A program made the position numbers and the translations under genes. From Salarchaeum japonicum (lineage in GTDB: Archaea > Halobacteriota > Halobacteria > Halobacteriales > Halobacteriaceae), in NCBI RefSeq assembly GCF_020614395.1, contig NZ_CP085324.1, positions 1,679,564 through 1,743,563 of the forward strand: a stretch of 64,000 nt of DNA, given 5' to 3'. The notes under the pieces were generated by a model, which was not told where the DNA came from, ran no database searches, and worked only from the letters and a program-made list of their open reading frames with translations. How positions within the stretch are numbered: the stretch's first letter is position 1; every line of letters starts with the position of its first letter. Shown piece by piece: positions 16,874-40,957 of this stretch.

Positions 16874-17005
16874 CTAGTCGTGGCGGAACGCCCGGTTGCC
16901 CGTGAACACCCAAGCCCTCGCTCCCGCTGGTCGCTCGCCCTTGGAGAGTCCGCCAGGCCGCCAGAGCGCTAGTCGTGGCGGAACACCCGGTTGCCCGTGA
17001 AGACC
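16874..17005 (-). repeat. Echo of the purNH 3' end: direct repeat flanking a 58-base spacer
   Basis: The last 37 bases of purNH (16969-17005) recur at 16874-16910 with two mismatches, stop codon included. The second copy would encode VFTGNRAFRHD-stop against VFTGNRVFRHD-stop in the real gene. The spacer (16911-16968), read on the purNH strand, contains CCTGGCGGAC followed five bases later by AAGGGCGA. The same arrangement occurs in the spacer after the acyl-CoA dehydrogenase at 40.8 kb. Confidence 0.75.
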
Positions 17006-39626: not shown

Positions 39627-40757
39627 ATGGATTTCAGCCCGAGCGCGGAACAACAGCAGATTCGGGAGATGGTCGCGGAGTTCGTGGACGAGGAAGTGAA
39701 ACCGCGCGCGGCGGAGATAGACGAGACCGACGAGGTTCCCTGGGACCTCATCGAGGAGATGGGCGAACTCGGCCTGATGGGGATGCCGTTCCCCGAGGAG
39801 TACGACGGCGCGGGCCTCGACTACCACTCGTACGCGCTCGCGCTGGAGGAAATCGCGCGAGGGAGCGGCGGTCTCGGCACCGTGGTCGCGGCGCACACGA
39901 GCCTCGCGGGGAACGTCGTCTACCACTACGGCGACGACGACCAGGTCGAAGCGTACCTGCCGGCGATGAACCGCGGGGAGGACATCGGCGCGTTCGCGCT
40001 CTCCGAACCCGGCGCGGGGAGCGACGTGCCCGCGATGCAGACCACCGCCGAGAAGGAGGGCGACGAGTACGTAGTGAACGGCGGGAAGCTCTGGATATCG
40101 AACGGCTCCGTGGCGGACACCGTGACGCTGTTCGCGAAGACCGGCGACGAGGAGATTTCGACGTTCGTCGTCCGGCCCGAGGCGGACGACGGCTTCATCG
40201 TCGAGGGCACGGAGGACAAACTCGGCGACAAGGGCTGTCCGACCGCCGAACTCCGGTTCGACGACATGCGCCTCCCCGAAGACCGCCTGCTCGGCGAGGA
40301 AGGCGACGGGTTCCGGCACGCGCTCGAAACCCTGAACGGCGGCCGCATCACCATCGCCGCGCGCTCCATCGGCATCGCGCGCGCCGCCCTCGAAGACTCG
40401 CTCGCGTACGCCCAAGACCGCGAGCAGTTCGACCAGCCCATCAGCGAGTTCCAGGCCATCCAGCACAAACTCGCGGACATGGACACGAAAGTCGAGTCCG
40501 CCCGGATGCTCATGCACAAGGCCGCGGACAAGAAAATCCGGGGCGAAGACTACATCAAGGACGCCGCACAGGCGAAACTCTACGCGAGCGAAATATCTCG
40601 TGAAGTGGCGAACGAAGCCATCCAGATCCACGGCGGCTACGGCTACACCAAGGACTTCGACGTGGAGCGCTACTACCGCGACGCCAAACTCAACGAAATC
40701 TACGAGGGCACGAGCGAAATCCTCCGGAACACGATTGCACGGCGGATGCTGAAGTAG
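39627..40757 (+). CDS. Acyl-CoA dehydrogenase (second in window)
   Basis: 376 residues, full length. FAD and substrate motifs: ALSEPGAGSDVPAMQT, NGGKLWISNGSVADT, YAQDREQFDQPISEFQAIQHKLADM, IQIHGGYGYTKDFDVERYYRDAKL, and catalytic Glu in IYEGTSEILRN. A CCTAAGG box lies about 25 bases upstream. Closest in style to short/branched-chain acyl-CoA dehydrogenases; substrate unknown. The 3' end is repeated about 90 bases downstream (see the repeat entry). Confidence 0.95.
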   Translation: MDFSPSAEQQQIREMVAEFVDEEVKPRAAEIDETDEVPWDLIEEMGELGLMGMPFPEEYDGAGLDYHSYALALEEIARGSGGLGTVVAAHTSLAGNVVYHYGDDDQVEAYLPAMNRGEDIGAFALSEPGAGSDVPAMQTTAEKEGDEYVVNGGKLWISNGSVADTVTLFAKTGDEEISTFVVRPEADDGFIVEGTEDKLGDKGCPTAELRFDDMRLPEDRLLGEEGDGFRHALETLNGGRITIAARSIGIARAALEDSLAYAQDREQFDQPISEFQAIQHKLADMDTKVESARMLMHKAADKKIRGEDYIKDAAQAKLYASEISREVANEAIQIHGGYGYTKDFDVERYYRDAKLNEIYEGTSEILRNTIARRMLK

Positions 40758-40845
40758 TGGCGTTCCTGGCGGACACGAAAAGGGCGACGAGCGCCCCGGC
40801 GCGAGGAGGGCTTTCCGGAACACGATTGTGCGGCGGCTGCAGTAG
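40722..40845 (+). repeat. Echo of the acyl-CoA dehydrogenase 3' end with related spacer
   Basis: The gene's last 36 bases (40722-40757) recur at 40812-40845. The stretch TCCGGAACACGATTG is identical, CGGCGG is kept and AGTAG closes both; the second copy has a 3-base deletion. It would read FRNTIVRRLQ-stop against LRNTIARRMLK-stop. The spacer (40758-40811) carries CCTGGCGGAC-N5-AAGGGCGA, as in the purNH spacer. Further on (40880-40915) a GAAAGGGGCGAGCGAGCGAA stretch resembles part of the purNH spacer again. Confidence 0.7.
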
Positions 40846-40957
40846 ACGGAGCGGCGCGGTGCTGTGCGGTGGTGGGGCATTGAAAGGGGCGAGCGAGCGA
40901 AGCGAGCGCGGGGCGTTCGACCAAAACACCCGTAATCGTTCGGGGAGTGGTCGGGGT

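Follow-up and report, generated by a model that had tools for sequence, protein, structure and literature searches.

A Short RNA-like Element at Haloarchaeal Stop Codons Is Flanked by Two Copies of the Host Gene End

In the window (the whole 64,000-nucleotide stretch of DNA that was analyzed), the end of an acyl-CoA dehydrogenase gene, ACAD1, is followed by a short element and then by an echo of the same gene end. Judged from the sequences, the arrangement is best described as an insertion with rescue of the gene end, not as a decaying tandem duplication. We refer to the functional left copy of the gene end, stop codon included, as A, to the element as E, and to the echo as A'; E follows A and its stop codon at a distance of 0 to 32 nt and precedes A'. 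We give about an even chance to the explanation that E is a structured element at stop codons that recombination via the gene end carries from lineage to lineage and that acts as a 3' UTR hairpin under selection.

Results

The ACAD1 Echo Encloses a Spacer Shared with purH

The ACAD1 terminus reads ...TCCGGAACACGATTGCACGGCGGATGCTGAAGTAG. The original prediction described its repetition some 90 bases on, with a 3-base deletion and four substitutions, and we confirm this: aligned with a 3-base gap, A and A' differ by three substitutions, or by four under an alternative placement of the gap. Aligned without a gap, positions 40723–40754 and 40814–40845 are 84% identical at a spacing of 91. E measures 49–53 bp here, and 56 bases separate A from A'.

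Table 1. Features of the ACAD1 and purH units (positions in the window)
Feature	Position	Strand	Evidence
Host gene, acyl-CoA dehydrogenase (ACAD1), 376 aa	39627..40757	+	Pfam PF00441/PF02771/PF02770
A, functional left copy of the ACAD1 end, stop codon included	40723..40757	+	alignment
E, structured unit CCTGGCGGACACGAAAAGGGCGA..GAGGAGGGCTTTC at ACAD1	40763..40815	+	covariance model 56 bits, E-value 3.7e-12; exact core
A', ACAD1 gene-end echo with its own TAG	40814..40845	+	alignment
Candidate degenerate third E-like unit	40865..40918	+	16.4 bits, E-value 0.017; kept in sister genome (L351)
A of the purH unit (gene end; the gene was called purNH in the original prediction)	16969..17004	-	
E of the purH unit	16910..16959	-	59.2 bits, E-value 6.1e-13
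A' of the purH unit	16874..16909	-	

A gene-end echo by itself is not unique in this GC-rich window, where one low-complexity ORF end scored higher; the combination of echo and shared spacer is unique in the window to the ACAD1 and purH loci. It had been claimed that the two spacers align and that two such copies beside unrelated genes are not a product of chance, and alignment to shuffled controls and a genome search for further units relative to stop codons had been proposed. Both were carried out, and both claims were borne out. The spacers align with a score of 26, which was reached by none of 5,000 dinucleotide shuffles (mean 9.0, SD 2.3, maximum 19) and by none of 18,138 other stretches of the window. 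The window contains exactly two copies of the core CCTGGCGGAC-N5-AAGGGCGA, with 0.15 occurrences expected at up to three mismatches, and at 0–1 mismatch the core has five copies in the 2.34 Mb genome. Four of these five are gene-end echoes mapping to stop codons, at purH, ACAD1, ACAD2 (a second acyl-CoA dehydrogenase), and a Tsr3-like gene; the fifth, on the second contig, is a different, larger relative. Low-complexity GC-rich repeats do occur in the window, but the wider family scans, the model matches, and the stem covariation described below add to the core counts and shuffles, which refute a chance similarity in GC-rich DNA and leave it a negligible probability. One part of the original prediction does need revision: the echo does not belong to the repeated unit, which is the 46–61 bp spacer (E), the echo being the host gene's own end and differing from gene to gene.

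A covariance model was built from 20 units, including the two of the window, so that the window scores (59 and 56 bits) are not independent. The third best match in the window was absent from the training set and overlaps positions 40880–40915, where a third partial unit had been suspected. This stretch is plausible as a degenerate unit, given its score and its retention in a sister species; it lacks the CCTGGYGGA motif and is listed as a possible third E-like unit (Table 1).

E Has a Covarying Fold

E is 46–61 bp long across units and consists of CCTGGYGG(A), a few variable bases, AAGGGCGA, a variable hairpin, and GAGGGCTT plus two closing bases. The latter covary with the two bases preceding AAG (20/20 sequences, with C-G, A-U, and U-A at one base-stem pair). 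The terminal stem has only 5 bp. In a 57-nt subtype with 31 members of fixed length, the hairpin has a 9-bp stem of arbitrary sequence and a G(C/T)CA loop; double changes were found at nine stem pairs, and the bases flanking the stem are nearly invariant. Over the whole structure we counted 112 doubly changed paired cells, compared with 38 ± 4.5 after shuffling and at most 31 in slid controls, and RNAalifold recovered the stem unprompted. With a helix that covaries above both kinds of control, E would qualify by its fold as a structured RNA, as far as sequence can tell. In 31/31 members the GYCA hairpin loop is complementary to the upstream UGGY loop of the first small hairpin, which is compatible with a kissing interaction; it is not proof of one, because the loop pairs hardly vary. 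Copies within one genome have differing stems and identical constant bases. Such compensated stems on a constant background are the mark of old elements under constraint, not of fresh transposition.

Units Recur at Fixed Sites in Distant Families

Twenty A-E-A' units were identified, distributed over seven gene families: purH, ACAD1, ACAD2, Tsr3-like, ALDH (aldehyde dehydrogenase), amidase-like, and YchF-like (identity is Pfam-confirmed for ACAD1 only, the other names being assigned by eye from translations). Model matches were found in 20 of the 26 sampled genomes of the family, and a wider scan across the order detected the 57-nt subtype or near variants in 44 of 293 genomes. E is a member of a superfamily of structured elements that spans Halobacteriales. 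Several E units (L017, L030, L042, L107) carry no echo, so echo and E are separable. An unsystematic look beside the chromosomal units revealed no conserved gene partner.

Outside the family (f1), ACAD1 echoes are present in three genomes of family f17 (G041, G140, G150) and an ACAD2 echo in one genome of family f14 (G052). The ACAD1 junction, GGGCTTTC followed by CGGAAC in the f1 genomes G000 and G001, is found with small changes in the f17 genomes; the junction nucleotide is therefore identical in five genomes of two distant families, 5 of 392 sampled. The ACAD1 tails are lineage-specific (RRMLK in one family versus NELLE/NELLD in the other), and the unit is absent from other family members whose ortholog was read. 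The ACAD2 units of G000 and G052 have a common junction and one common extra base in A'.

An ancient unit, inherited vertically and with gene conversion maintaining the similarity of A and A', would fit the occurrence of both the ACAD1 and the ACAD2 unit in G000 and G001 and the way in which A' tracks the local gene end. Such descent could also produce lineage-specific tails in place of recombination, at the cost of very many losses: for the sparsely distributed ACAD1 junction alone, dozens would be needed, and we regard this explanation as unlikely.

Several variants of the layout were also seen. The purH locus of G011 has a tandem expansion, A-E-A-E-A, with a unit of about 108 bp (L016:1393-1650, minus strand). 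G001 has two nearly identical ALDH genes (L266, L277), with an E unit at one only. At L323:1060-1200 and at L338 (minus strand), a second E-like unit directly follows the first. At three loci of two f17 genomes (L344, L346, L353), short repeats, either tandem or spaced, combine GCGCCGAGGGCTTTC with variable sequence.

The Echo Is Mostly the Native Gene End

G014 provides an empty ACAD1 site: the stop codon and the next start are separated by about 47 nt, compared with 200 nt in the window, and the neighbor gene is the same. In G017, the body of the ALDH gene and A' match those of G021/G023, whereas A and E resemble those of G024; the ALDH gene of G024 itself has the E type of G017 and its truncated A' start. 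At this locus, the one clear donor/recipient case, a donor tail and E arrived together and the native tail became A'. Consistent with this polarity, A' of the G000 purH unit is identical to the gene end of the sister species, A' of the G022 ALDH unit has the commoner codons, and A' at ACAD1 retains CTG, the codon usual among relatives, at a position where the codon of A is ATG. The differences separating A from A' are distributed 17:11:35 over codon positions, favoring the third (p = 6e-4), as expected if A evolved as coding sequence and A' stayed put; of the differing codons, 30 are synonymous and 26 non-synonymous. On these comparisons, A' is in most cases the native, older gene end, which inverts the picture drawn in the original prediction. 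A tandem duplication of A plus E was rejected, since the last copy of A has no E after it.

The original prediction also read the greater decay of the ACAD1 copies as the sign of an older event. This is unsafe: both A and A' of ACAD1 are common to the sister species, and within one genome A resembles A' beyond the expectation for independent decay. With A and A' partly tracking one another, decay is weak evidence of age.

Discussion

E Differs from Several Known Elements

None of 4,227 Rfam families gave a gathering-score match in the window, and none matched at an E-value of 0.5 in 13 loci; membership in an Rfam family was rejected for lack of a covariance-model match. A literature search found no description of the element. 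A viral origin was rejected, the exact core being absent from a viral contig collection.

REP/BIME elements are intergenic hairpins near gene ends. E is likewise an intergenic hairpin close to a gene end, but its stem sequence is free and compensated and the gene end is duplicated. When integrative elements enter gene 3' ends, att duplications restore the gene end. The A-E-A' units resemble them in that the native tail is displaced and a new synonymous tail restores the gene; they differ in having 46–61 bp between the copies, no integrase, and one insert in unrelated target genes. Indeed, no gene lies between A and A', which sets the units apart from integrase-type insertions, and in the loci read none of the chromosomal units is accompanied by a linked transposase, integrase, or nuclease. 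In TnpB/IscB guide RNAs and ORF-less HEARO elements, a structured RNA is followed by host sequence. E, too, is a structured, RNA-like unit followed by host sequence, but without an Rfam match or a linked nuclease, and the right ends of 30 haloarchaeal tnpB loci have a sequence other than that of E; on these 30 ends a TnpB/IS605 origin or an omega RNA was rejected. MITEs have transposase-related terminal inverted repeats and a short target duplication; in this comparison E showed a terminal stem of only 5 bp, and no parent transposon was found.

Among elements of the haloarchaeon Haloquadratum, small mobile repeats (SMRs) carry inverted ends and do not duplicate their target, and PATEs also lack target duplication, with a terminal-only PATE of 52 bp having been described (PMC3119063). 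Like SMRs and terminal-only PATEs, E is very short, transposase-free, and dispersed; unlike them, it is flanked by 35–110 bp gene-end copies, has a covarying fold, and is located at stop codons. The 20 A-E-A' units depart from the absence of target duplication that defines SMRs, and also from the IS605-type near-terminal palindromes and lack of target duplication of PATEs. E lacks the testable defining features of SMRs, PATEs, and TnpB guide RNAs, and would be a variant among the short dispersed haloarchaeal elements, one that combines a structured, RNA-like core with a layout rescuing the gene end.

How E May Spread and Persist

In the explanation that we favor, the arriving piece would be a gene tail plus E, so that the reading frame would always be restored. 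Once at a gene, the unit would move between cells and species, with homologous recombination taking place in the two copies of the tail. In the 3' untranslated region E would work as a hairpin, of RNA (or single-stranded), whose fold is selected, and this selection would keep the 46–61 bp insert between direct repeats across genera. The fixed order, the conserved fold, the recurrence at fixed sites, and the single donor-tail case form the observed part of this explanation.

A different account makes E an old short mobile repeat, now inert, that was inserted long ago by some form of transposition duplicating 35–110 bp of target and is found at gene ends because hits elsewhere were harmful. The dispersed copies with defined ends, their patchy distribution, and a decayed copy in G020 suit this account, and haloarchaea do carry transposase-free mobile repeats (SMRs, PATEs), some of unknown mobilization (PMC3119063). 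Against it stand recurrence at the same site and the compensated stems of same-genome copies, which do not look like recent transposition. Moreover, precise deletion between direct repeats of 35–110 bp should be easy, and their persistence across genera argues for maintenance or re-entry. We consider an inert repeat possible but doubtful.

The start of A' deserves separate attention. A and A' differ within the first nine bases after E in 17 of 20 units, and five units have only one or two differences apiece, of which a single one lies outside the first nine bases of A'. Such changes, at positions 2–9 of A', might arise because a guide must not recognize its own unit, or because a hairpin after E is being adjusted. 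In a test for the hairpin, 13 of 18 changed cases gave a more stable structure for A' than for A; random mutation did as well in 12/400 trials at 24 nt and 1/400 at 30 nt, with no excess at 20 nt, a modest degree of support. An RNA-guided, homing-like element, with E as scaffold, A' as guide against the element-free gene end, and A as a recoded rescue tail, would explain these clustered differences together with the order of scaffold and gene tail and the retention of the native tail in A'. We think it very unlikely: no effector gene is linked, haloarchaeal TnpB right ends are unlike E, no common motif flanks the target upstream, and the differences can also be read as building the hairpin. 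A "home and rescue" element, an RNA of about 50 nt that repeatedly installs itself at the same nucleotide of conserved genes, supplies a replacement gene end, and recognizes its target by the old one, is to our mind equally improbable.

Larger Relatives and Significance

Other chromosomes carry an element of about 190 bp with sharp ends (GCGGTGGCCGG...GAGGGCTTTC) and three hairpin modules, of which the 57-nt unit comes last; the element often abuts the stop codon of a convergent gene. Such three-hairpin elements of about 190 nt, with free stems and ending at the right end of E, were seen at L322, L323, L325, L328, and other loci. G052 has ten E cores. In haloarchaeal plasmids, the 57-nt unit forms the end of a conserved non-coding region that measures several hundred nucleotides and precedes, in divergent orientation, an RPA-like gene (no Pfam match; named by eye); conservation of the region ends at GAGGGCTTTC. 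The plasmid region (L010:3400-4100; L282-L293) ends in an E-like domain of 111 nt and is a candidate new RNA; an RPA-like/TFB-like module recurs beside it. The larger relatives of E have no Rfam match, and the single annotated plasmid record found has no feature at the E-like region.

E is an apparently undescribed, widespread structured element of haloarchaea and part of a larger RNA-like family, whose chromosomal members measure about 190 nt and whose plasmid members span several hundred nucleotides. A gene-safe insertion layout hitherto associated with large integrative elements here surrounds an insert of 46–61 bp. The units offer a testable system for the function of archaeal 3' UTR RNA and for the spread of very small elements between species.
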